From: Halomonas denitrificans
Lineage (GTDB): Bacteria; Pseudomonadota; Gammaproteobacteria; Xanthomonadales; Wenzhouxiangellaceae
Assembly: GCA_019800895.1 (NCBI GenBank)
Contig: JAHVKF010000001.1
Span: 930,001 to 994,000, forward strand
DNA length: 64,000 nucleotides
Reading direction: 5' to 3'
The translations under genes were made by a program, and so were the position numbers. Position 1 is the stretch's first letter; the number at the start of each line of letters is the position of its first letter. A model generated the notes under the pieces. It did not search any database and had not been told where the DNA came from. It saw only the letters and a program-made list of their open reading frames with translations. This document shows, one piece after another, positions 4,015-19,230 of the stretch.

Positions 4015-5022
4015 ATGCCCCTGATGCAGACCCTGATCGGAACCGGCCGGCGGCGCTGGATCACGCTCGCCGCCGCCGCCGTGCTGGCGCTGTGCGCCGT
4101 GTACCTGTTCTGGCTGGATCACGAACCGGATCCGTTCGACCCGCTGGTCCGCGCCGAGGCCCGGGCCGAGCGCGCCGGTCATGACGTGGTCACCGGCTAC
4201 GTGACCACCAGCGCGCTGATCGATGTGATGGACACGCTGCTGAACAAGCGAGGCGGCTACCTGAACAACGACCTCATGCCGCCGTGGATCGTTCTCGACA
4301 ACATGCCGTCCTGGGAGATCGGGGTGATCTACCAGGCCCGGGACCTCGCCCGGACGCTCCGCAACGACTTCAGCCGCTCGCAGACCCAGTCGGCCGAGGA
4401 CCGGGCGCTGGCGATTGCCGATCCGCAGTTCAGCTTCGACTACGGCTCCTGGTGGCTGCCTTCGACCGAGGGCGAATATCGCGAGGGCATCGAGCAGCTG
4501 GAAGACTACCTGGATCGCCTGGGCTCCCCCGACGGCGAGGCGCGCTTCTACGATCGAGCGGACAACCTGCGCGAGTACCTGGCGCTGGTGGAGAAACGGC
4601 TGGGCAACATGGGCCAGCAGCTGTCGGCCAGCGTGGGCGACCGTCGACGCAATACGGACCTTTCCGGCGACGCCGCCGCGCGCCCTTCCAGCGACCTGGG
4701 GCGGGAAGTCCGGGTCAAGACGCCGTGGTTGCGAATCGACAACGTGTTCTACGAGGCGCGTGGGACGACCTGGGCGCTGATCCACTTCCTCAAGGCGCTG
4801 GACCACGATTTCGCGGCCGTGCTTCGCGACAAGAATGCCGAGGCCAGCCTCGACCAGATCATCCGGGAACTCGAAGCCAGCCAGCGGCCGGTCCGGAGTC
4901 CGGTCATCCTCAATGGTGGCGGCTTCGGCATGTTCGCGAACCACTCGCTGGTCATGGCCAATTACATTGCCCGCGCCAACGCGGCGGTCATCGACCTGCG
5001 GCGGCTGCTCGAGCAGGGCTGA
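4015..5022 (+). CDS. DUF2333 family inner-membrane protein
   Basis: A 335-residue protein with one N-terminal membrane segment (about residues 15-34) and a large region that should face the periplasm. The blocks NKRGGYLNNDLMPPWIVLDN, WEIGVIYQARDLARTLRNDF and RFYDRADNLREYL are characteristic of DUF2333, a family of unknown function found in gammaproteobacteria. The start at ATG 4015 (MPLMQTL) is preferred over two upstream in-frame ATGs (3937, 3985) because it places the membrane helix near the N-terminus and has GGGAAA upstream; this choice is moderate. It precedes the substrate-binding lipoprotein by 114 bases. Confidence 0.85.
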   Translation: MPLMQTLIGTGRRRWITLAAAAVLALCAVYLFWLDHEPDPFDPLVRAEARAERAGHDVVTGYVTTSALIDVMDTLLNKRGGYLNNDLMPPWIVLDNMPSWEIGVIYQARDLARTLRNDFSRSQTQSAEDRALAIADPQFSFDYGSWWLPSTEGEYREGIEQLEDYLDRLGSPDGEARFYDRADNLREYLALVEKRLGNMGQQLSASVGDRRRNTDLSGDAAARPSSDLGREVRVKTPWLRIDNVFYEARGTTWALIHFLKALDHDFAAVLRDKNAEASLDQIIRELEASQRPVRSPVILNGGGFGMFANHSLVMANYIARANAAVIDLRRLLEQG

Positions 5023-5136
5023 CGCGGCGGGGGCAGGAAGGGTCGGGCCGCAGGAATGCACTCCGGCGGTCTGATAGGCTGGCTACAGCGAAGATCGTGC
5101 CCGTTCGCGGAATGCCGGCACGCAGGGGAGGAACGA

Positions 5137-6123
5137 ATGGATCGACCGTCCACCAGGGCCTGGCGCAAACCGGTCGGCGTGCTTGCCGTGTGGTTTCTAG
5201 CCGCCTTCCTCGCGGCCTGCGGGTCGCCCGAGCCCCCGATCCGCGTCGCGACCCTGCCGTGGCCGCCCTACGACCTCGTGCATCTTGCGGCAACTCTCGA
5301 CCGGCTCGACCCGGGGCAGGTCGAACTGGTCGAATTCCAGACCCCGGCCGAGGCCGTCCGTGCCTTCCGCTACGACCTCGTCGACGCCATGCTGGTCACC
5401 AGTCACTTCGCGCTCAGCACCGCCGCCGAGCGGCCGGACAGCCGCATCGTCTATTTCATCGACGTCAGCCTGGGCGGCGATGCGCTCCTTGCACGGCCGG
5501 CGATCGAGTCCGGCGACGAGCTCCGGGGCGGACGGATCGGCGTCGAGGCCGCGCCGCTCGGCACCTATACGCTGATCCGGGCGCTCGACCACCTGGCGAT
5601 CGGCCGGGACGAAGTGGAGATCGTCCAGATCGACACCCCCGACCAGGCCGAAGCGTTCCTGGCCGCCGAAGTCGACGCGGTCGTGACCTACGAACCGACT
5701 CGTTCGCTGCTGCTCGCAGAAGGCGCGAACTCCCTGTTCGACAGCGAGCAGATTCCCTTCGAGATCATCGACGTCGTGGTGACCCGCGAGTCGGTCATCG
5801 ATGAACGAAGCGATGCGCTCGCGGAGCTGGTCCGGGCATTCGACCGCGGCCTGGCCACCTGGCGCGAGCGACCGCAATTCACCGCCGAGGAACTCGCGCG
5901 GCGATACGCACTGGACCCCGATGAAATCCGGTTCGGCCTGGACTCGGTCGCCCTGTACGGCCTGGCGGAGAACCGGGGCATCTTCGACGACCCGGACGGT
6001 GCCGTCCTGCGCGGCCTGACCGAGCAATGCCGCGTCATGCTGCGCGAGGGCCTGCTGGCCTCCCAGCCCTCGACCGAGCGACTCCTGGACCGTCGCATCG
6101 TCGACCGGGCCCTGGCGCAATGA
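5137..6123 (+). CDS. Substrate-binding lipoprotein (NMT1/SsuA-like), paired with a GGDEF-EAL protein
   Basis: A 328-residue lipoprotein with lipobox LAAC, lipidated Cys28. The mature part has a type-2 periplasmic-binding-protein layout: an IRVATLPWPPYDL start, a first lobe to about residue 120, a DALLARPAIESGDELRGGRIGVE crossover (split here in description only) and a second lobe with VVTYEPTRSLLL. This resembles ThiY/SsuA/NMT1-type binding proteins. No permease or ATPase gene is nearby. Its TGA overlaps the ATG of the GGDEF-EAL gene (ATGA), so ligand binding probably feeds c-di-GMP signalling and not transport. The ATG at 5137 has GGGGAGG 5 bases upstream. The ligand cannot be told from sequence. 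Confidence 0.85.
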   Translation: MDRPSTRAWRKPVGVLAVWFLAAFLAACGSPEPPIRVATLPWPPYDLVHLAATLDRLDPGQVELVEFQTPAEAVRAFRYDLVDAMLVTSHFALSTAAERPDSRIVYFIDVSLGGDALLARPAIESGDELRGGRIGVEAAPLGTYTLIRALDHLAIGRDEVEIVQIDTPDQAEAFLAAEVDAVVTYEPTRSLLLAEGANSLFDSEQIPFEIIDVVVTRESVIDERSDALAELVRAFDRGLATWRERPQFTAEELARRYALDPDEIRFGLDSVALYGLAENRGIFDDPDGAVLRGLTEQCRVMLREGLLASQPSTERLLDRRIVDRALAQ

Positions 6124-8225
6124 CGCTTCGCCTGCCGCTTCGCTTCGTCGTCCCGCTGCTGATCCTGGCCGTGGGGGCGATGATCCTGACCTCGGCCTGG
6201 ACCTTCGAGCTGCGAGCGATGAACCAGAGCCTGCTGGCCGTCTCCGACCAGCAGCTCCGGTCGAATGCGTCCTTCATCGCTGCAGAGGTCGAAGCGGCCG
6301 TTCGCAATCGTAACTTCGGTGAAGCACGCGCGGCACTGGAGCGGGCCATCGCGATTCCCAGCCTGCGGTCGATCCACCTGGTCGACCCCGACGGCACGAT
6401 CCGCTTTTCGTCGATGCGGGCCCTGGCCGGGAAGACCTTTACGGAGGAACCGGAGACGCGCCAACTCCATCTCGAGGTTCCGTTCGGTCCAGGCAACAGC
6501 GTGACCGTCCACACCGACCCGGATCGTGCACGGCTGGTCGGGCGTTTCCCGGTGCAGATGCGCGCCGAGCCGGGCGAGCTGATGCCGGTGCGCTCCGGCG
6601 CGCTCTATCTCGTCCACGACCTATCGGACATGCTGGCCGAGCACCGGGCCGCACTGAATCTCCGGATGGTTCGGCGCACGGTGCTGCTGGTGACCATCGC
6701 GATCGGGTTCTGGCTGCTGCTTCGCCGGCTGCTGCTGACCCGCATCGACCGCCTGATCCGCACCACGCGCGAGGTTGCCCAGGGGAAATTCGATGTCAAG
6801 TTCGACGACCGGGGACGCGACGAGCTCAGCGACCTGGCGCGCGAACTCGACCGCATGACCGCCGGACTCCGCGACCAGGCGGAGCATCTGAGCTACCTGG
6901 CCGATCACGACGCGGTGACCGGACTGCTGAATCGCGTCGGATTCGAAGCCGCGACCGAAGTGGCGCTCGCCGATGCGCGTACGCGGCGAAGCCACTTCGC
7001 CATCTGCCTGCTCGACATCGACAGTCTTCGCGTGATCAACGACACCCAGGGCCACCTTGCCGGCGACGAGCTGCTGCGGGACTTCGCCGGCCTGCTCGAA
7101 GACGCGCTTCCCGACGCGCTGGCCATCGCCCGCGTCGGCGGCGACGAATTCGCGGCCCTGATCGACGTCGACCACGGCGAACCGCTGGACACGGTCGGCC
7201 GTCACATCGCCGAGCACATCCGCGCGTTCCGTTTCGAGCGCAAGGGCGAACGATTCGGAATCCAGGCCTCGACCGGGATCATCGCTCTGACGCCGGAGAT
7301 CCGCGACTCCGGAGAAGCCCTTAGCGCAGCCGATGCGGCTTGCTACCGGGCCAAGGAAAAGCAACGGGGCAGCATTCACATCGGTTCCGCCGACGCCATG
7401 CGCAGCGACCTCATGGAAGGCAGCATGCGCTGGGTCAGCCGGATTCACGAGGCGCTCGACGAGGACCGCCTGGAGCTCCATGCCCAGCGAATCGAAGCGA
7501 TCGGCGATGGCGATCACTCCCTGCATTTCGAGGTGCTGGTACGGATGCGCGACCGCGATGGTTCGCTGATCGAGCCGAGCCAGTTTCTGAGCTCGGCGGA
7601 ACGCTACAACCTCGTTGGCCGGATCGACCGCTGGGTGATCGCCAGAACGCTCGAATGGCTCGACCGGAATCACGACGCACTGGAGCGCATCGCGACCTGT
7701 TCGATCAACCTGTCGGGACTCAGCCTCGCCGACCCCGGCCTGTTGTCCGAGGTTTCCGATCGCCTGGCCCGTCACCCGCGGATCGACCCGGCCATCCTGT
7801 GCTTCGAAGTGACCGAGACCGCCGCGATCCGGAATCTCGACCAGGCCAACGGTTTCATCGTCCGCATGCGCAGAATCGGCTGCCGATTCGCTCTCGACGA
7901 TTTCGGTACCGGCCTGTCGTCGTTCGAGTACATCAAGCGCCTGCCCGTCGACATGATCAAGATCGACGGCATGTTCGTGCGCGACATCGTCACGGATCCG
8001 GTCGATCGCGCCATTGTCAAGGCGATCCATGAAATCGCCAGCGAAGTCGGTATGTGGACCATCGCCGAGTTCGTCGAAAGCGACGAGATCCTCGAAGCCC
8101 TCCGCTCGATCGGCGTGCATTTCGTCCAGGGGTTCGGCATCGCGCGTCCCGTACCCATCGACGACGTCCTCGTGGCGACCGCGAACGGCGACGATGCTGC
8201 GCCGCAGCGTCGCTCGGCCGACTGA
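6120..8225 (+). CDS. Membrane GGDEF-EAL protein (c-di-GMP cyclase/phosphodiesterase)
   Basis: A 701-residue protein. Order: membrane helix 1 (~6-26), periplasmic sensor region (~27-180), helix 2 (~186-205), HAMP (~206-258), GGDEF domain (~265-430) and EAL domain (~440-690). The GGDEF signature is intact at 340-344 (RVGGDEF), but the position of the inhibitory RxxD site reads PDAL, so product feedback is unlikely. In the EAL domain the signature is EVL (E471), a common functional variant, and DDFGTG is intact at 593-598. It may therefore make and break c-di-GMP. It is translationally coupled to the upstream binding lipoprotein, which likely contacts its periplasmic region. Confidence 0.93.
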   Translation: MTLRLPLRFVVPLLILAVGAMILTSAWTFELRAMNQSLLAVSDQQLRSNASFIAAEVEAAVRNRNFGEARAALERAIAIPSLRSIHLVDPDGTIRFSSMRALAGKTFTEEPETRQLHLEVPFGPGNSVTVHTDPDRARLVGRFPVQMRAEPGELMPVRSGALYLVHDLSDMLAEHRAALNLRMVRRTVLLVTIAIGFWLLLRRLLLTRIDRLIRTTREVAQGKFDVKFDDRGRDELSDLARELDRMTAGLRDQAEHLSYLADHDAVTGLLNRVGFEAATEVALADARTRRSHFAICLLDIDSLRVINDTQGHLAGDELLRDFAGLLEDALPDALAIARVGGDEFAALIDVDHGEPLDTVGRHIAEHIRAFRFERKGERFGIQASTGIIALTPEIRDSGEALSAADAACYRAKEKQRGSIHIGSADAMRSDLMEGSMRWVSRIHEALDEDRLELHAQRIEAIGDGDHSLHFEVLVRMRDRDGSLIEPSQFLSSAERYNLVGRIDRWVIARTLEWLDRNHDALERIATCSINLSGLSLADPGLLSEVSDRLARHPRIDPAILCFEVTETAAIRNLDQANGFIVRMRRIGCRFALDDFGTGLSSFEYIKRLPVDMIKIDGMFVRDIVTDPVDRAIVKAIHEIASEVGMWTIAEFVESDEILEALRSIGVHFVQGFGIARPVPIDDVLVATANGDDAAPQRRSAD

Positions 8226-8350
8226 GCGCCCATTCCGTCGCGGACTGCAAACCGGGAGCTCGGTGCAATGTGCTGCGTCCCGCTTTCGCCGGACGGGTTC
8301 ACACGCGATCGGCATGCTGGGGTTCCCTCGACGGCTGCACCGGACGACCC

Positions 8351-9133
8351 ATGACGAACGCGGAACTGATCTGGCTGGGTTTCATCGCCAGCCTGCTGGC
8401 CGGGCTGGGCACGGCCGTCGGCGCCCTGGGCGTGGTCGCGGTCCGACGGCTGTCGCCGAAGCTCGAGGATGCGCTGCTCAGCGCGGCCGCGGGCATCATG
8501 CTGGCGGCGTCCTTCTTTTCGCTGCTGCTGCCGGCGATCGGCTACGGCGAGCAGTATTTCGGCGGCACCCAGCGTGCGGTACTGGTGGTGACCGCCGGCC
8601 TGCTTGCCGGCGCCATCGCGCTGCACCTCGTTCATCGCTTCGTTCCGCACGAACACTTCGTCATCGGCCGCGAGGGCCCGGACGTCGACACGGTGAGCCG
8701 GATCTGGTTGTTCATCATCGCCATCACCCTGCACAACTTTCCCGAGGGCATGGCGGTGGGCGTCGGCTTTGCCGGCAACGACATCGACAACGGCATCTCG
8801 CTGGCCACCGGCATCGGGCTGCAGAACATTCCCGAAGGTCTGGCGGTCGCCGTTTCATTGCTGGCCGTCGGATACTCGCGGCTCGCGGCGTTCTCGGTCG
8901 GGGCGCTGACCGGCCTGGCCGAGCCCATCGGCGGCCTGTTCGGTGCCGCCGCGGTCTCCCTGGCCGGCCCGATGATGCCGTTCACCCTCGGCTTCGCCGC
9001 CGGTGCGATGCTGTTCATCATCTCCGACGAGATCATCCCCGAGACCCACCGCCGGGGCTACGAGACCATCGCCACCTTCTCCCTGCTCGGCGGCTTCGCG
9101 GTGATGATGTTCCTGGACGCCACCTTGGGGTAG
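8351..9133 (+). CDS. ZIP family divalent metal transporter
   Basis: A 260-residue polytopic protein with about eight hydrophobic segments. The two metal-site helices are clear: HNFPEG starting at residue 128 and QNIPEG starting at residue 158, the paired motifs of ZIP permeases of the ZupT/GufA group. Such proteins import zinc and related divalent cations through the inner membrane. A His-rich loop (HLVHRFVPHEHF, ~90-103) precedes the metal helices. The start at 8351 lacks a clear Shine-Dalgarno but matches the first membrane helix. The gene stands alone, followed at once by a repeat element. Confidence 0.9.
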   Translation: MTNAELIWLGFIASLLAGLGTAVGALGVVAVRRLSPKLEDALLSAAAGIMLAASFFSLLLPAIGYGEQYFGGTQRAVLVVTAGLLAGAIALHLVHRFVPHEHFVIGREGPDVDTVSRIWLFIIAITLHNFPEGMAVGVGFAGNDIDNGISLATGIGLQNIPEGLAVAVSLLAVGYSRLAAFSVGALTGLAEPIGGLFGAAAVSLAGPMMPFTLGFAAGAMLFIISDEIIPETHRRGYETIATFSLLGGFAVMMFLDATLG

Positions 9134-10081: not shown

Positions 10082-10299
10082 GGATGATGAGCGCAAAGAC
10101 GCGAAGGCCCGAAGAGAAAGGCGGATGCGTGGAACCCCCCCTCGGCCAGACATCCAACGAATCGATTCCTGAATCGACTGCGTACTCTGGAAATCGGATC
10201 AACCTGGAAATGCTTGCCGGCCGCGGCTCTTTCCAGGAATGACCTTTCTCTTCGCGCCCTTGCGTCTTCGCATCTTCGCGTCCTTGCGATCATCATCTA
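10082..10299. repeat. Type B inverted-repeat element, copy 1
   Basis: The left end reads GGATGATGAGCGCAAAGACG and the right end is the imperfect reverse complement (…TCCTTGCGATCATCATCTA). The matching arms run roughly 40-55 bases, the right arm having one extra 12-base unit. The remainder of the gap 10010-10357 holds no gene. This copy lies just upstream of the subtilase; copy 2 lies at its stop codon. Confidence 0.75.
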
Positions 10300-10357
10300 C
10301 CGGACGCGATCGAAACCCGGGCTTTACGCTGATGCCGGAGCAAGCGATGATGCGCGG

Positions 10358-11854
10358 ATGCCGCATTTCATCCTGACCCACCGCCGCGCTGGCAAGCGCG
10401 CGGATCATCAGCATCACGCCGGGCGGGCCGCGATGGCCGATGCGATGGACAAGCACGTGGACCGCCTGGCCTCGGACGTCCGTACGCACGAGCCGCACCA
10501 CGATACCGCTCGCCACGTCGCCCGCTTCGAGGCCGACCATGACGATGTCCGGGCGATCGACTGGCATCCGGCATTGATCTGCGAACCCCTGGTCCCGCAC
10601 TTCATCCGCTCCCGGCACGCCAGCGACACGGGCCGGGCCTTGCCGCACGAGCTGTCGATTCCGCTTCGACGGGAAGGGGACGATCGACTGCTGGTGCGAG
10701 TCGTCGACGAAGCGGGCGTGCCGGTGGCCGACGTGGATGTCTTCGCCTACTTCGGCTCTGCGTCGAACCGTGTCCAGGCCGCGACCCGGACCGACGCGGA
10801 CGGCGTCGCGACGCTCGACCACGATCCCGAACGCCCGCTGCTGGAGCTCGCCGTTGCACCCGCATCGCACTGGTGGCCGCAGGTCATCGAGCACCGGAGT
10901 GGCGCAGAACCGGAGATCCGAGTCGATGTCCGGCTCCAGCCCCTGCCCCCTTCGGAACGGGGCCTCGGTTGGTGGCACCGGGAAGCCGGCCTGGACGCCG
11001 TCGACCTGCAGCGCGGAACGGGGATCGCGGTCGGCGTGGTCGACTCGGGGCTGGGCCACCACCCCGCTCTCGCCCACGTCCACAATCTCGGCGCCTTTCT
11101 CGACGGCGCCCATCTCGCCGACGGCGGCGACGACCGCGGCCACGGCACGCACGTGGCCGGTGCGATCGGTGCCCGACCGACGGCGAGCAGCGACTACGCG
11201 GGGCTGGCACCGGGCGCCCGGCTCGATGCGTTCCGGGTCTTCGGCCCCGATGGCAGCGCCCACCAGGGCGATATCGCGCGGGCGCTGGACGTGCTGGTCC
11301 ACGACCGGGACTGCCACCTGGTCAACCTGAGTCTGGGAACGGTCCACCGCTCGGAGATCGTCGCCGACGCGCTGCTCGACGCCGTGGAAACGGGAACCCT
11401 GGTGATCTGCGCGGCCGGCAACAGCGCGGGCCCGGTGGAATTTCCCGCCGCGCTCGACGAGGCGGTCGCCGTCACGGCGTTGGGCCGGATCGACCAGGCA
11501 CCGGCCGGAACCCTGTCGGCGCACCGGGTTCCGGACGATGCCCGGCTTCGCGCCGATCCGGTGTTCATTGCCAATTTCAGCTGCAGAGGCGAATCCGTCG
11601 ACGTCGCCGGACCCGGCGTCGGAATCATCTCGACGGTACCCGGCGGCGGCTGGGCGGCCTACGGCGGGACGTCGATGGCCGCGCCCCAGGTCACGGGCGC
11701 TCTGGCCGTCCTGCTGGCGGAAGACCCCGACTACCTCGCCCTCCCCGCCGGCCCCGACCGCAGCGCCCGCGCCCGCGCCATGCTTCGCGCGCACAGCCAG
11801 GACCTCGGCCTCGACCGTCGCTACCAGGGCCACGGCCGGATACGGAAAGGCTAG
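10358..11854 (+). CDS. S8 subtilisin-like serine protease without signal peptide
   Basis: A 498-residue protein. The first ~90 residues are unusually His-rich (14 His). Residues ~95-175 look like a small beta-sandwich of the carboxypeptidase-regulatory type (VRVVDEAGVPVADVDVFAYF). The subtilase domain starts near 220 with the triad Asp229 (GVVDSG), His262 (RGHGTHVAG) and Ser439 (GGTSMAAPQ), plus the oxyanion Asn in AAGNSAG; all are intact. No signal peptide is visible from ATG 10358, so it may work in the cytoplasm. The C-terminus YQGHGRIRKG stops abruptly where the family usually continues GxGxxDA, and its TAG lies in the end of repeat copy B2. It is convergent with the borosin methyltransferase gene; a role in leader cleavage is only a hypothesis. 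Confidence 0.88.
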   Translation: MPHFILTHRRAGKRADHQHHAGRAAMADAMDKHVDRLASDVRTHEPHHDTARHVARFEADHDDVRAIDWHPALICEPLVPHFIRSRHASDTGRALPHELSIPLRREGDDRLLVRVVDEAGVPVADVDVFAYFGSASNRVQAATRTDADGVATLDHDPERPLLELAVAPASHWWPQVIEHRSGAEPEIRVDVRLQPLPPSERGLGWWHREAGLDAVDLQRGTGIAVGVVDSGLGHHPALAHVHNLGAFLDGAHLADGGDDRGHGTHVAGAIGARPTASSDYAGLAPGARLDAFRVFGPDGSAHQGDIARALDVLVHDRDCHLVNLSLGTVHRSEIVADALLDAVETGTLVICAAGNSAGPVEFPAALDEAVAVTALGRIDQAPAGTLSAHRVPDDARLRADPVFIANFSCRGESVDVAGPGVGIISTVPGGGWAAYGGTSMAAPQVTGALAVLLAEDPDYLALPAGPDRSARARAMLRAHSQDLGLDRRYQGHGRIRKG

Positions 11855-12179: not shown

Positions 12180-13007
12180 TCAGCTCGTGCGGCGGTGTTT
12201 CTGGAAGGCGGCTTCGGCGCGGCCGGTGGGGTCGAGGCCGAGGCGGCGGAGGCGGTTTTCGTCGGCTTCGGGGACGCCGATCGGTGGAACGTAAAGTGTA
12301 GAGGCCTGGGTGAATTCGAGGTCATGCAGCTGATCGAGCGGAACCTCGTCGGCGCGCGTTCGATCGAAGGGGCCCACCGCGGCTTCGTAGACGATGACGC
12401 GGTGATCGGCCGGGTACGACTCGGCCAGCACGAGGGCCAGCGCACGAACCCAGGCCGGGTCGGTTTCGAAGGTCGAGCGCGACAGGTCGCCGAGCACGGC
12501 CAGCTGCCACAGCACCAGCGGCGTCCGCGCATCGATCGTGCGCGGGTGGACGAGAAAGTCGGCGGCCTCGTAGGTCTGCAGGCCGGAGACGCCCGGATCG
12601 ATGCCCAGATCCGCAATCAGGCAGTCCTCGGCCGATACGCCCGGATACATCGTGGCCTCGAAGCCTTCGGCTCGGGCGCGCCGGATCGCCTCGTGGGCGG
12701 GCCAGACGAACACACCCGGATGGCCGTAGAACGCGGCGCACACGTGCTCGCCCTTGCGCACCGGCTCGAGCATCGCGTCGACCATGCGCTCGTAGCTCTC
12801 GTCGCGCGGCCGGCCCTTCGAGTAGTGGACCTGCAGCGACGCGATATTGGCGTTCAGATCACGCAGCACGCCGAGCGAGAACGGATCGGCCATGACCGCG
12901 AACACCCGGTGCGCCTGGCGCACCAGGTGGCGTGTCTCGACGGTCAACTGGCCGGCCAGGCGAATGCCCGTTCCGACCACGCTGAGCCGACCGCCGGAAC
13001 CCGACAT
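12180..13007 (-). CDS. Split-borosin peptide backbone alpha-N-methyltransferase (SonM type)
   Basis: A 275-residue SAM-dependent enzyme of the tetrapyrrole-methylase fold. The arrangement LSVVGTGIRLAGQLTVETR, Tyr62, Arg68-x3-Tyr72, FYGHPGVF (93-100), GVSAEDCLIADLGIDPG (123-139) and VIVYEAAV matches SonM of Shewanella and the methyltransferase half of fungal OphMA closely (from memory). Those enzymes methylate backbone amides of a precursor peptide. The Arg/Tyr pair corresponds to the residues implicated in amide activation. Unlike OphMA, no core peptide is fused to its C-terminus; the substrate is encoded just upstream, 6 bases away. Its own ribosome-binding site is weak, so it probably depends on translation of the precursor. 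An ordinary cobalamin or siroheme methylase is unlikely because the YGHPGVF/SAEDCLIADLGIDPG set is borosin-specific. Confidence 0.92.
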   Translation of the reverse strand: MSGSGGRLSVVGTGIRLAGQLTVETRHLVRQAHRVFAVMADPFSLGVLRDLNANIASLQVHYSKGRPRDESYERMVDAMLEPVRKGEHVCAAFYGHPGVFVWPAHEAIRRARAEGFEATMYPGVSAEDCLIADLGIDPGVSGLQTYEAADFLVHPRTIDARTPLVLWQLAVLGDLSRSTFETDPAWVRALALVLAESYPADHRVIVYEAAVGPFDRTRADEVPLDQLHDLEFTQASTLYVPPIGVPEADENRLRRLGLDPTGRAEAAFQKHRRTS

Positions 13008-13013
13008 CGCTTG

Positions 13014-13220
13014 CTAAAGAACGATGAAGTTCATGTGCGCGTCTTCGGCGCCGGCTTCCTTCTGCAAGGCATCCTTGTCACCGTCGCGCACCATCTTGCG
13101 GTGTTCTTCGGCCAGGTCGTGCTTCTCCATGACCGCCTCGGGGTCGTCCTGGAACTGCTTGCGCGTTTCCGGGTCTTCGGCCATCGTGCGGATGAACTTG
13201 CTCAGGTTTTCCTTCGACAT
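13014..13220 (-). CDS. Split-borosin precursor peptide with BBD leader and C-terminal hydrophobic core
   Basis: A 68-residue peptide. Residues 8-52 form the helical borosin-binding domain, distantly like LigA-type helical bundles: FIRTMAEDPETRKQF, DPEAVMEKHDL and a DGDKDAL helix. It aligns without gaps to SonA of Shewanella over this whole span (from memory), including the DPEAVM/NPEAVM motif. A short linker EAGAEDAHM leads to the core NFIVL, placed where SonA has YLVIS, and the protein ends there with no follower residues. Likely methylation sites are residues in I66-L68 by analogy. It has a strong Shine-Dalgarno (AGAGGAGAA), consistent with high expression relative to the enzyme. It lies between the amine oxidase and methyltransferase genes. 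Confidence 0.88.
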   Translation of the reverse strand: MSKENLSKFIRTMAEDPETRKQFQDDPEAVMEKHDLAEEHRKMVRDGDKDALQKEAGAEDAHMNFIVL

Positions 13221-13268
13221 CGTGCTTCTCCTCTCGGTGGTGGGGAATTCGAATCGGTCGATTCGAGG

Positions 13269-14795
13269 TCAAGCGGAATACGGGGCCAGGCAGTCGGTGT
13301 TGCCGAGCCAGTCCGGCGCATCGAGCCCGAAGGCCTGCTGCAGCATCACCTCGGCCGAGGTCAACGCACCCTGGACCCAGCCCTGGTAAGCGCTGTAGGC
13401 CTCGCCGCAGACGTGGATGCCGGCATGCCCGCGCAGCGTGGCGGCCGCCTCCCAGCTCTTCCAGCCCGGAGACCAGGCATGCCACCCGGCGTAGTACGGC
13501 GGGGCGGCCCAGTCGACGAAGATCCCGTCGACGGGCTTCGGCACATCGACGCCGTGCATCTCGGAAAGCTGCCGGCACAACTCCGTGGCAGCGCGCTCGG
13601 GAAGCGGAGTCGTCAGTTCGACGCCGCGGCCGTCCTCGCGCATCAGCGGGGGCCAGAACGACACGGCGCGCTCGTCGCCGAAGGCGCCGAGCAGAAGGCC
13701 GTCGCCCGTCGCAGGGTCCTGGCCCAGATAGAAACACTGGCGCAGCGGCAGATCCGTGTGCGAGGCCGAGAAATGGCCCAGCTCGATGTGACCCGGCCCG
13801 TCCGGCACCCGCTCCCACCACGGCTCGTCGAACACCATGAAGATCTTGCACGCCGACGTTCCGAAGGACGAGGCGAGGGCCTCGTGCATGGCGGGTTCGG
13901 CGTCGAACTCCAGGCGCTCGAGGGCACCGGTCGGCAGCGCCAGGATCACACGCCGGGCCAGGACCGGAGGGCGACCGTCGGCGAACTCGATGCGCTTCGA
14001 GCCGTCCCCCTGGTCGCGGACCCGCGTGGCGAACGCACCGGTCTCGACCCGGACTCCCGCGTCCTCGGCGCGGGCCCGCAGGCGCTCGGGCAGCCGCTCG
14101 TATCCCTCGGCCAGCCGGTACCAGTTGCCGACGAGGTCGGCCAGGGTCGAGAACACCGCGTCCAGGGCGTTCCAGTTCGAGAACAGGGCATAGGTGCCCT
14201 CGACGTCGGCCAGGGCGAGGCGCGCCTCGTTGCTGACCACGCGGGAGACCAGGTTCCAGAACCCCCAGGCGTGAAGCGGCCGGCCGTCGAACTCCACGGT
14301 CCGCAGGTAGGCCACCGTATCGGCCATCGTTGCCTTCTTGTCGAAGGGCCAGACGCGGTCGATCTCCGGCGCGATGCGGCGGACGATCAGGAGCAGGAGT
14401 TCATGCGGCTGAAGGCCCTTCTCGTCGTCGGCCAGCCGATAGGGAAGCTCGCCCGGCTCGGCGAAGTCCGCCATCCGGAAGCGCGTCGCACGCAGCCAGG
14501 CGAAGTCGGCCTCGGGCGTCACGGCCTGGACCTCGAAGCCGAGCTCGTCCTTGCAGAGACGATAGACCAGGTCCTGGGCATCGCTGAAGAACATGCCGCC
14601 GAGCTCCGCCGGAATCGAGTGTTCGTCCTTGAGGCAGACCGAGTACAGCCGTCCGCCGGTGCGCTCGCTGCCTTCGAACACCGAAATGGCCGCGCCGTCG
14701 ACGCCGCTGGCAGCCAGTCGCCAGGCGCTGTAGAGGCCGCTGACGCCGCCCCCGATGATGGCCGTGTCGAGCACGGCGTGCTGCTGTCCGCTCAT
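13269..14795 (-). CDS. FAD-dependent amine oxidase in the borosin operon
   Basis: A 508-residue flavin amine oxidase. The N-terminal dinucleotide motif AIIGGGVSGLYSAW (~12-25), ERTGGRLYS (Arg contact to flavin) and the C-terminal block HVCGEAYSAYQGWVQGA (starting at His461) define the monoamine oxidase/L-amino-acid oxidase superfamily. The interior segment PYYAGWHAWSPGW contains aromatic residues that often line the substrate cage. Such enzymes oxidise amines or amino acids to imines with release of hydrogen peroxide. The gene is first of a three-gene unit, 48 bases upstream of the precursor gene, so it may modify the methylated peptide or a released amino acid; this is inference from position. 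No signal peptide is seen. Confidence 0.85.
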   Translation of the reverse strand: MSGQQHAVLDTAIIGGGVSGLYSAWRLAASGVDGAAISVFEGSERTGGRLYSVCLKDEHSIPAELGGMFFSDAQDLVYRLCKDELGFEVQAVTPEADFAWLRATRFRMADFAEPGELPYRLADDEKGLQPHELLLLIVRRIAPEIDRVWPFDKKATMADTVAYLRTVEFDGRPLHAWGFWNLVSRVVSNEARLALADVEGTYALFSNWNALDAVFSTLADLVGNWYRLAEGYERLPERLRARAEDAGVRVETGAFATRVRDQGDGSKRIEFADGRPPVLARRVILALPTGALERLEFDAEPAMHEALASSFGTSACKIFMVFDEPWWERVPDGPGHIELGHFSASHTDLPLRQCFYLGQDPATGDGLLLGAFGDERAVSFWPPLMREDGRGVELTTPLPERAATELCRQLSEMHGVDVPKPVDGIFVDWAAPPYYAGWHAWSPGWKSWEAAATLRGHAGIHVCGEAYSAYQGWVQGALTSAEVMLQQAFGLDAPDWLGNTDCLAPYSA

Positions 14796-14838: not shown

Positions 14839-16620
14839 CTACTCGTCTTCGTGTCGCACGACCCGGTTGCGGCCCTCGTCCTTGGCACGATACAGCGCGC
14901 GGTCCGCGCGCCGTAGCGCCTCGGACCGGTCCAGTCCTTGCTCCAGCTCGGCCAGCACGCCGATCGAGACCGCCATCTCGATCCGGACTCCATCGTAATC
15001 GACGGGCCGCTCCGTCGCCGCACGATGGATCCGCCGCGCGACCTCGACGGCGGCAGAGCCGCTGAGCGAGCGCAGCACGATCGCGAACTCGTCGCCACCG
15101 AGCCGGCACAGCACGTCACCGTCGCGCAATTCGCGCAGGCATCGGCGGGTCAGCGAACGCAGCATCATGTCGCCGGCTTCGTGTCCGTGCGTGTCGTTGA
15201 TCTGCTTGAAATGATCCATGTCCAGCAACAGCAACGCGCCCTCGATACCGGAGTGCCGGGCGTCGTCCATCATCGCGCCGAGATAGCTCTCGAAGAAGCG
15301 TCGGTTGTAGGCGCCGGTCAGGGAGTCCTGGTTGGCCAGCGTCATCGCCCGGTGCTGCTCGTGCTCGGCGCGGATGCGCTGCTCACGCAACTGGCCGACC
15401 CGGTAGGAAAGCCCGAGCGCGAGAATCATCGCCTCGAGCACACTGCCGACGTAGAGCGCGTACTCGGCGATCGGTGTACGAGGGATCGCCTCGACGCCGA
15501 TCAACGAACGGATGAAGCCTCCGCCCAGGAACGCTCCCCAGGCGGCGAGAAAGATCCACGCGGCACTGGAACCTCGTCGTCCGGCCAGCAGGGCGGCGCC
15601 GATCAACGCGAACACGGTCACCGAGCTCAGCAGCTGCGAGGCGGGACCGAACACGGCGGCCGCCTTCAACGGCACGAAGGCGGACACCACCGCAAGAGCG
15701 AGGAAGACCAGGGCGATCGCGGACAGGGCCCTGCTGTACTTCGGAATCCGATCCTCGGCACCGGCGAAGACCTGGAAGAACCGGATGGTCGCCGCCATCA
15801 TCAGGCAGCTCAGGACGACGATGACCAGCAGCTCGCGCTCGCGAAGCCCATCGGGCAGGAGCGGCTGGAGCAGCCCGGCGTCCATGCCCATGAACAGCAG
15901 CACTGCAGTCATGGCCAGGACGTACATCCGGTGCCCGGGCGTGCGCAGGTTCAGGTAGAGCACGAGGTTGTAGAAGACCAGCGCGAACATCGCGCCGAAG
16001 TACAGACCGAAGGCCCACATCGCGGTCGAACGATCGGCCAGGTATCCGGTCACGGGCTGCACCGATACGTCGAGCGGCCCCAGCGAGCCCTGCAGCGTCT
16101 CGGCACGAATCAGGAGTTCGGCCCGCTGCCCCGGCGCAAGTTCCAGCGGGTAGACGAGATGCCAGGCGAGAATCTCCGTCGGGCGGTAGTCCGCAAGGCC
16201 GTTGCTGTAGGTGGCATGACCGCCGTCGGCCGTCGGCACGTACAGCTCGAGGACGCGGAAGTACCGTCGCTTGACCTCGAGAACCCAGGAGCCGCTCGCG
16301 GATGCATTGGCCTGCAGCGGAATCCGCAGCCAGACCCGCCCCTCGGGCGGCGTCTCGAACTCGCCGAGCGGGCGGAACCCGTCGGCGGCCAGCACATCGG
16401 CGGCGGAACGCAGCGTTCCGTCGTCGACGCGGACCAGCGCCTCGTCCTGGAGCCGAAGCGTCTTCCCGTCCATGGGCAGAGTGACGACGGTCTGCGCGAA
16501 CGCGTTCCCGGCCGCCACCAGCAGGACGGCGAGCAGCACCATCCTGCAGTTGAACGCTGCGTGCCTCAAGATGTCGCCTCTTCCTCCGGGGTCGGTGTCC
16601 GGACGACCGCTGCCGCCCAT
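14839..16620 (-). CDS. 7TM-DISM diguanylate cyclase
   Basis: A 593-residue protein. A signal sequence (MVLLAVLLVAAGNAFA) is followed by a 7TMR-DISM extracellular sensor domain (~45-180), seven membrane helices (~200-400), a short coiled linker and a GGDEF domain. GGDEF is intact at 508-512 and the inhibitory RxxD site is present (RDGD, 499-502), so it should make c-di-GMP with product feedback. DISM domains often bind carbohydrate-like ligands. The ATG at 16620 gives an N-terminal extension; the signal peptide suggests a real start near 16542 or a TTG in between. It is 43 bases upstream of the amine oxidase gene and could share its transcript, but functional linkage is not shown. Confidence 0.9.
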   Translation of the reverse strand: MGGSGRPDTDPGGRGDILRHAAFNCRMVLLAVLLVAAGNAFAQTVVTLPMDGKTLRLQDEALVRVDDGTLRSAADVLAADGFRPLGEFETPPEGRVWLRIPLQANASASGSWVLEVKRRYFRVLELYVPTADGGHATYSNGLADYRPTEILAWHLVYPLELAPGQRAELLIRAETLQGSLGPLDVSVQPVTGYLADRSTAMWAFGLYFGAMFALVFYNLVLYLNLRTPGHRMYVLAMTAVLLFMGMDAGLLQPLLPDGLRERELLVIVVLSCLMMAATIRFFQVFAGAEDRIPKYSRALSAIALVFLALAVVSAFVPLKAAAVFGPASQLLSSVTVFALIGAALLAGRRGSSAAWIFLAAWGAFLGGGFIRSLIGVEAIPRTPIAEYALYVGSVLEAMILALGLSYRVGQLREQRIRAEHEQHRAMTLANQDSLTGAYNRRFFESYLGAMMDDARHSGIEGALLLLDMDHFKQINDTHGHEAGDMMLRSLTRRCLRELRDGDVLCRLGGDEFAIVLRSLSGSAAVEVARRIHRAATERPVDYDGVRIEMAVSIGVLAELEQGLDRSEALRRADRALYRAKDEGRNRVVRHEDE

Positions 16621-17385: not shown

Positions 17386-19230
17386 CTACTTCTTCTTCGG
17401 CGCGTACAGGTCCGTGATCGTGCCTTCGAACATCTCCGCGGCCATCATCACCGATTCGCTCAGGGTCGGGTGCGGATGGATCGTCAATCCGATGTCTTCG
17501 GCCGTGGCGCCCATCTCGATCGCCAATCCGATTTCGGCGATCAGGTCGCCGGCGTGCAAACCGACCACGCCGCCGCCGATCACCCGGCCGCTCTTCTCGT
17601 CGAACAACAGCTTGGTGAAGCCCTCGGACCGGTCCATGCCCAGCGCGCGGCCGCTGGCCGCCCACGGGAACTTGCCGACGCCGAAGTCCAGGCCCTGCTC
17701 CTTCGCCTGGTTTTCGGTCACGCCGACCCAGGCGACTTCCGGATCGGTGTAGGCCACCGATGGGATGGTCCGGGCGTCGGCGGCGCGCTTGTGGCCGGCG
17801 GCGACTTCGGCCGCGACCTTGCCCTCGTAGCTGGCCTTGTGGGCCAGCATCGGCTGGCCGACCAGGTCGCCGATGGCGAAGATGTGCCGCTGGTTCGTGC
17901 GCATCTGGCCGTCGACCTCGATGAAGCCGCGATCGGTGACGGTCACACCGGCCTCGTCGGCGCCGATCGAATCGCCGTTCGGGCGGCGGCCGACGCAGAC
18001 CAGCACGCGGTCGAAGTCGGCGGTCGATGGCGCGTCCTCGCCATCGAAGGTCGCGGTCAGCGCCGAATCGCCGGCATCGACCCCCTCGACCTTGGTCTCG
18101 AGGTGGAACTGCACGCCCTGCTTCTCGAGATGCTGCTTCAGGGGCTTGACCAGGTCCGGGTCGGCACCCGGCATCAGCTGGTCCATCATCTCGACCACCG
18201 TGATCGTCGACCCCAGCGCGCGGTAGACGCAGGCCATTTCAAGCCCGATGATGCCGCCGCCGATGATCAGCAGGCGCTCCGGCACATCGGTCAGCTCGAG
18301 CGCACCGGTGGAGTCCATCACCCGCTCGTCGTCCCAGGGAATGCCGGGAATCTGCATCACGCGCGACCCGGCCGCGATGATGCATTGCGCGAAGGACACC
18401 GTCCTCGATTCACCGTCGTGCTCGACGGCGATCTCGTGCGACGAGGTGAACGCGCCTCTGCCCGTGATCACCTCGACCTTGCGCTTCTTCGCCATGCCGG
18501 CCAGGCCGCCGGTCAGCTTGTCGACGGTGGCCTGCTTGAAATTCCGCAGCTTGTCGAGTTCGATCTCCGGCTCGCCGAAGGACACGCCGTGCTCGGCCAG
18601 GTGCGCCGCCGAGTCGATGACCTGGCCGACGTGCAGCAGCGCCTTCGACGGAATGCAGCCCACGTTCAGGCAGACCCCGCCCAGGGACTCGTAGCGCTCG
18701 ATCAGCGCAACCTTGAGGCCAAGGTCGGCGGCGCGGAACGCGGCCGTGTAACCCCCGGGGCCGGCGCCGAGCACCACCAGGTCGAAGTCGGCATCGGTCG
18801 GCGCGTCGCTCGACCGGGGAGCGGCGGAAGACTTCCTGGCCGGGGTCGCTGAGGGCGACGAGCCCTTCGATTCGGATTCCGGGTCGCCGGTCTCGTTGTT
18901 CGGCGAGGCCGATTCTTCTTCCGACGTCGCGTCGGCCTTCGCGCCCTCGCGGCCCGAGTCGGAATCGTCGCCTTCCCCGCCCGCGGCCTCTTCGACCTCG
19001 AGGACGCCGATCACGTCGCCTTCGGAAACCTCGTCGCCTTCACTCACCTTCAGCTCGACCAGCCTGCCGGCTGCCGGAGAGGGCAGGTCCATCGTCGCCT
19101 TGTCCGACTCCATCGTCAGCAGCGACTGCTCGGCCTCGACCGTGTCGCCCTCGGACACCAGCACCTCGATCACCGGCACCTTGTCGAAGTCGCCGATATC
19201 GGGGACGCGGATTTCAGTTCGTTTGCTCAT
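17386..19230 (-). CDS. lpdA: Dihydrolipoyl dehydrogenase (E3) with N-terminal lipoyl domain
   Basis: A 614-residue protein. Residues 1-80 form a lipoyl domain with the lipoylated Lys44 (ESDKATMD); an acidic, disordered linker runs to ~145. The E3 part follows: FAD motif VVLGAGPGGYTAAF, redox pair Cys187/Cys192 (GGVCLNVGCIPSK), an NAD-binding GGGIIGLE, and the dimer-interface HPHPTLSES with the catalytic His. It reoxidises dihydrolipoamide of the pyruvate dehydrogenase complex with NAD. A lipoyl-fused E3 is typical of several beta- and gammaproteobacteria. It is the last gene of the aceE-aceF-lpdA operon, separated from aceF by a repeat element. Confidence 0.96.
   Translation of the reverse strand: MSKRTEIRVPDIGDFDKVPVIEVLVSEGDTVEAEQSLLTMESDKATMDLPSPAAGRLVELKVSEGDEVSEGDVIGVLEVEEAAGGEGDDSDSGREGAKADATSEEESASPNNETGDPESESKGSSPSATPARKSSAAPRSSDAPTDADFDLVVLGAGPGGYTAAFRAADLGLKVALIERYESLGGVCLNVGCIPSKALLHVGQVIDSAAHLAEHGVSFGEPEIELDKLRNFKQATVDKLTGGLAGMAKKRKVEVITGRGAFTSSHEIAVEHDGESRTVSFAQCIIAAGSRVMQIPGIPWDDERVMDSTGALELTDVPERLLIIGGGIIGLEMACVYRALGSTITVVEMMDQLMPGADPDLVKPLKQHLEKQGVQFHLETKVEGVDAGDSALTATFDGEDAPSTADFDRVLVCVGRRPNGDSIGADEAGVTVTDRGFIEVDGQMRTNQRHIFAIGDLVGQPMLAHKASYEGKVAAEVAAGHKRAADARTIPSVAYTDPEVAWVGVTENQAKEQGLDFGVGKFPWAASGRALGMDRSEGFTKLLFDEKSGRVIGGGVVGLHAGDLIAEIGLAIEMGATAEDIGLTIHPHPTLSESVMMAAEMFEGTITDLYAPKKK

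Follow-up and report, generated by a model that had tools for sequence, protein, structure and literature searches.

A putative four-gene split borosin operon that joins a flavin oxidase and a membrane diguanylate cyclase to a precursor–methyltransferase pair

We consider it fairly probable that the window analysed here (64,000 nt; contig JAHVKF010000001.1, forward-strand positions 930,001–994,000; all coordinates below are positions in the window unless a locus is named) carries a four-gene operon for a split borosin, in which a flavin oxidase would act on the modified peptide and a diguanylate cyclase would couple the pathway to c-di-GMP. Open reading frame calls and Pfam searches place four codirectional minus-strand genes inside 4.5 kb: a membrane diguanylate cyclase of 593 residues, the first gene of the unit (14839–16620); a flavin amine oxidase of the L-amino acid oxidase branch (508 residues, 13269–14795); a borosin precursor of 68 residues (13014–13220); and a SonM-like borosin peptide backbone α-N-methyltransferase of 275 residues (12180–13007). 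The gaps between them are, in this order, 43, 48 and 6 bases. The original prediction had proposed a three-gene operon of oxidase, precursor and methyltransferase at 12180–14795; all three reading frames lie where it placed them, on the minus strand, and it overlooked the cyclase as well as a further borosin locus at another place in the genome.

The arrangement is conserved: in a sample of 43 genomes of the family, with membership of the methyltransferase clade called at E ≤ 1e-70, the clade occurs in nine genomes (that of the window included), and all nine have the order cyclase–oxidase–precursor–methyltransferase. A contig search with the methyltransferase as query returned three loci. In the closest relative, G051, the oxidase, precursor and methyltransferase share 80–84% protein identity with those of the window, and the dN/dS ratios between the two loci are 0.26 for the cyclase, 0.19 for the oxidase, 0.22 for the precursor and 0.25 for the methyltransferase. 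We considered whether the gene upstream in the relatives is a second oxidase and rejected this; it is the cyclase. Further upstream, a minus-strand frame at 17386–19230 resembles the dihydrolipoamide dehydrogenase with an N-terminal lipoyl domain that adjoins the cyclase in locus L038.

The methyltransferase finds its best solved-structure match in SonM (7ltc and relatives; E 1.1e-59 over residues 6–260), followed by the fungal enzymes dbOphMA, OphMA and MroMA (E 4e-51 to 2e-44), in keeping with the predicted likeness to SonM and OphMA. Mutation of Y58, R67, Y71 and Y93 lowered the catalytic parameters of SonM (PMC8429565); by alignment these residues correspond to Y62, R68, Y72 and Y94 of the window enzyme, and all four are kept in all nine aligned orthologues.

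The precursor, whose ATG is preceded by GAGGAG, matches the SonA chains among solved structures (best E 2.4e-5, residues 5–67) and scores above the Pfam cut-offs for LigA (31.8 vs. 25.3 bits) and Nif11 (25.1 vs. 23.8 bits). Its local alignment to the SonA binding domain scores 86, whereas 2000 shuffled sequences averaged 22.8 and never exceeded 45. The gap-free alignment to SonA that had been proposed holds across the binding domain (17 identities in 53 positions) but not beyond it, as a one-residue gap separates domain and core. The peptide consists of an N-terminal borosin-binding (LigA-like) domain, a short linker and a hydrophobic C-terminal core with no follower; extending the SonA alignment puts the predicted core at residues 64–68, Asn-Phe-Ile-Val-Leu (13017–13031, minus strand). 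The nine precursors of the clade have 67–68 residues, the last of which form a hydrophobic stretch (NFIVL twice, RLIIF twice, and NFIIF, QLLIV, QLIIL, QFIII and QFVIL). SonA is methylated at Leu63 and Ile65 (PMC11285071). These residues align with Ile66 and Leu68 of the window precursor, which are thus the most likely methylation sites; Leu68 is the last residue, so that the second methyl group is predicted on the amide of the very end of the chain. More widely, 8 of 59 methyltransferase genes of the order and 5 of 13 of the class gave no match to the precursor profile.

Type IV split borosins are defined on SonM/SonA by a separately encoded α-N-methyltransferase and precursor (PMC8429565), and the window unit very probably encodes a type IV-like split borosin yielding a small backbone-methylated peptide: precursor and enzyme are separate, adjacent reading frames (13220–13014 and 13007–12180) in all nine loci, the enzyme is homologous to SonM with the four tested residues in place, and the peptide combines a SonA-like binding domain with a hydrophobic C-terminus. 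The split-borosin reading of the original prediction is thereby supported. The window system shares with SonM/SonA of Shewanella oneidensis a separate methyltransferase of 263–275 residues, a precursor of about 70 residues with a LigA-like binding domain, the four active-site residues and a hydrophobic core (PMC8429565); it differs in that the window precursor extends no further than the counterpart of SonA Ile65, and in that the unit includes an oxidase gene. Homology to OphMA and dbOphMA (5n0o, 6mjf) extends over residues 5–264 of the methyltransferase domain (E about 1e-50), but those proteins carry precursor and clasp in the same chain, whereas the substrate of the window enzyme is a separate protein.

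The oxidase belongs to the FAD amine oxidase family (PF01593, 137 bits), and among solved structures it comes closest to L-amino acid oxidases; a profile of eight orthologues matches the best of these, 8jhe, at E 7.7e-98. Homology to 8jhe (an ancestral L-amino acid oxidase), 7eih (an L-Lys oxidase) and 8t8a (an amine oxidoreductase) covers most of the chain and takes in the FAD motifs, Lys317, which presumably has a role at the FAD site, and the TDLP..Q..Y stretch. The window enzyme departs from L-amino acid oxidases at their carboxylate-binding Arg, which is replaced by Phe69. We take the Arg of the GGMR motif, found in the L-amino acid oxidase chains with shown alignments, to be Arg90 of the Calloselasma enzyme. 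In that L-amino acid oxidase, Arg90 binds the substrate carboxylate (PMC6149928). The residue after GGM is Phe in all ten oxidases of borosin loci, from ten genomes (nine GGMFF, one GGMFL), so that the Arg expected of an L-amino acid oxidase was found in none of these aligned copies, and two oxidase homologues away from borosin genes (L107 and L108) keep it (GGMRF). Arg and Phe69 stand opposite each other in the alignments to 8t8a and 7eih, and in that to 8jhe the Arg falls into a one-residue gap beside Phe69. An AlphaFold2 model of the oxidase, for which two sequences were used, reached a pLDDT of 34.5, and the proposed replacement of Arg by Phe therefore rests on sequence alignment.

The window-type oxidase was found only in the borosin operon, unlike the L-amino acid oxidases of 8jhe, 7eih and 8t8a. 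A search of 200 genomes of the order at E ≤ 1e-40 recovered it in nine. Eight of these carry this methyltransferase clade; the remaining one (G119, locus L106) has the cyclase upstream, and its contig breaks off just past the oxidase, at the point where precursor and methyltransferase would be expected. Among 274 genomes of the class, E ≤ 1e-60 returned only the window's own copy, and 398 genomes of the phylum added two further homologues at 1e-25 (L107 and L108), with no borosin methyltransferase within about 5.5 kb of either; near the L107 homologue, a GGDEF gene lies on the opposite strand at a distance of about 1.2 kb. The other borosin loci scanned in the order and class yielded no oxidase. 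The predicted pairing of oxidase and split borosin is thus real, being conserved in nine of nine loci of the methyltransferase clade. Loss of the carboxylate Arg, together with strict co-occurrence with the borosin locus, leads us to infer a substrate without the carboxylate of a free amino acid, most simply the peptide; the oxidase is probably a peptide-tailoring enzyme rather than a free amino acid oxidase.

The cyclase comprises a 7TMR-DISMED2 sensor, a 7TM region and a GGDEF domain (141.8 bits, Pfam) with an intact GGDEF signature and an RxxD motif, as expected of a diguanylate cyclase, and a homologue lies directly upstream of the oxidase in the other oxidase-type loci. Linkage was scored where a GGDEF protein of 400 residues or more lay on the same strand within 2.2 kb of a borosin methyltransferase. 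The matches listed in the order make up 125 rows, eight of them the oxidase clade, and the surroundings of 83 of the 117 others, representing 79 genes, were examined. Of these 79 genes, 73 have a cyclase next to them: 59 of 59 in a set that consists mostly of top-scoring or same-family matches and is not random, and 14 of 20 weaker matches. Four of the six misses (L147, L149, L153 and L163) come from contigs no longer than 5.5 kb; the other two (L154 and L158) are not cut short. For comparison, control regions were chosen by shifting coordinates in 20 of the same genomes, one per genome, and a GGDEF protein was present in one of the 20; the window's genome holds 35 GGDEF matches in 3.2 Mb. Linkage was found at both second borosin loci, those of the window's genome and of G051, and at 9 of 13 genes at class level, and at neither of two loci from other phyla. 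The cyclase is a more general partner than the oxidase, although proximity of genes is no proof of a common pathway.

GGDEF and borosin methyltransferase domains are fused in a single open frame in two loci, L157 (locus positions 4186–6765) and L159 (5977–8499); a precursor candidate adjoins each fusion. Of seven cyclases outside the clade (five separate, two fused), four have TPR repeats at E ≤ 1e-4, three of them over the Pfam cut-off, and none has a Pfam-detectable 7TMR-DISM sensor. In L134, where the precursor is SonA-like, the cyclase is a TPR-GGDEF protein and there is no oxidase, whereas the window cyclase carries a 7TMR-DISM sensor and lies upstream. Two further arrangements were seen: the 540-residue reading frames of L153 and L154 apparently hold two tandem borosin methyltransferase domains, with a precursor candidate and no cyclase found, and L064, with four GGDEF genes, three precursor candidates and a single methyltransferase, looks like the result of a duplication of the unit.

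The second split borosin of the window's genome (L037, G000:C4:20228-37009; methyltransferase at locus positions 7976–8797, precursor end at 6204) has the core LTNSTVKAYR, a GGDEF gene that overlaps the methyltransferase and no oxidase; L046 in G051 is its counterpart. Beside the window unit, a plus-strand subtilase gene (10214–11854), convergent with the methyltransferase, has below-cut-off similarity to the mycosin, QhpE and PatA proteases. We rejected it as a dedicated leader protease; it lies beside three of the nine loci, all of the genus (L049 was viewed with 1.5-kb flanks).

Our proposed mechanism runs as follows: the N-terminal helical domain of the precursor would dock on the SonM-like methyltransferase; the enzyme would transfer methyl groups from SAM to backbone amides of the hydrophobic C-terminus, with Ile66 and Leu68 as the likeliest sites by analogy with SonA; the flavin oxidase may then modify the methylated peptide or a fragment of it, not free amino acids; and the membrane cyclase may couple the pathway to c-di-GMP, with the peptide as its cue or with its sensor timing peptide production. 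We propose this last coupling because of the frequent linkage and the two gene fusions.

Other readings can be set against this one. That the methyltransferase is a tetrapyrrole methylase of cobalamin or siroheme synthesis, next to a stray LigA-like protein, could be argued from its Pfam assignment (TP_methylase, 62.5 bits vs. a cut-off of 27.8) and from weak NCBIfam matches to cobalamin methylases; yet the best such equivalog reaches 19.8 bits against a cut-off of 391, borosin enzymes account for 25 of 25 among the solved-structure matches listed at E ≤ 0.001, and the precursor adjoins the methyltransferase in all nine loci. We reject this reading as highly improbable. The original prediction had itself named best hits among cobalamin or siroheme methylases, with no borosin members, as the outcome that would speak against it, and we found the opposite among the matches listed. 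We also regard as unlikely that the locus is an ordinary split borosin with an independent L-amino acid oxidase, which would release H2O2 or keto acids and leave the peptide alone: the L-amino acid oxidases that are its nearest solved relatives, as well as the retained Lys317 and TDLP..Q..Y stretch, fit such an enzyme, but the exchange of the substrate-carboxylate Arg for Phe in 10 of 10 copies does not, and neither does the distribution of the gene, which in 200 genomes of the order (E ≤ 1e-40) was confined to this locus type and in 274 of the class (E ≤ 1e-60) to the window's copy.

Somewhat less unlikely, though still doubtful, is that the methylated precursor stays whole and that its complex with the methyltransferase works as an intracellular switch on the cyclase or the oxidase. 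Clade precursors stop at the core with no follower, no protease or exporter conserved in the unit was seen among the clade loci, and the cyclase–methyltransferase fusions place both activities in one chain, all of which would suit a peptide that is never released; however, the sources covered here describe the release of fungal borosins, omphalotin among them, in the form of cyclic peptides. In other RiPP pathways, moreover, the protease may be encoded elsewhere. We prefer the four-gene operon in which a methylated peptide would be further oxidised. A broader proposal, that gammaproteobacterial split borosins form a c-di-GMP module in which an N-methylated peptide, or the precursor–methyltransferase complex, serves the neighbouring membrane cyclase as its dedicated cue or regulator, joined in this clade by a repurposed, Arg-less amino acid oxidase that would bring a novel oxidative modification to the methylated peptide, is offered tentatively, as a possibility to which we give rather less than even weight.

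The precursor–methyltransferase pair belongs to a known kind, and what sets the window system apart as a variant is its cyclase partner, together with an oxidase that has Phe where Arg would be expected. Literature searches that paired borosin with amine oxidase retrieved only unrelated work, so that the oxidase-containing cluster, put forward earlier as a new composition, looks new within the literature searched; an earlier description in a borosin survey (Lee et al. 2024) is possible. Nothing was found in the same literature for borosin with diguanylate, nor for 7TMR-DISM with RiPP. A list of borosin types 0–X does name a GGDEF domain in the legend of its Figure 1 (PMC11395268); as given in that legend, this architecture is perhaps like the fused L157 and L159, whereas the window cyclase is a separate membrane protein. 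Since a GGDEF-containing borosin architecture is in print, the cyclase linkage is partly known, and partly new at best.

No biological role of a bacterial borosin is given in the portions of the literature covered here, and the frequent, sometimes fused, cyclase partner hints at what these peptides may be for and makes a role in c-di-GMP signalling testable. The oxidase, for its part, would be a borosin tailoring step not met in the literature searched, and is a candidate for an enzyme that acts on an N-methylated peptide.
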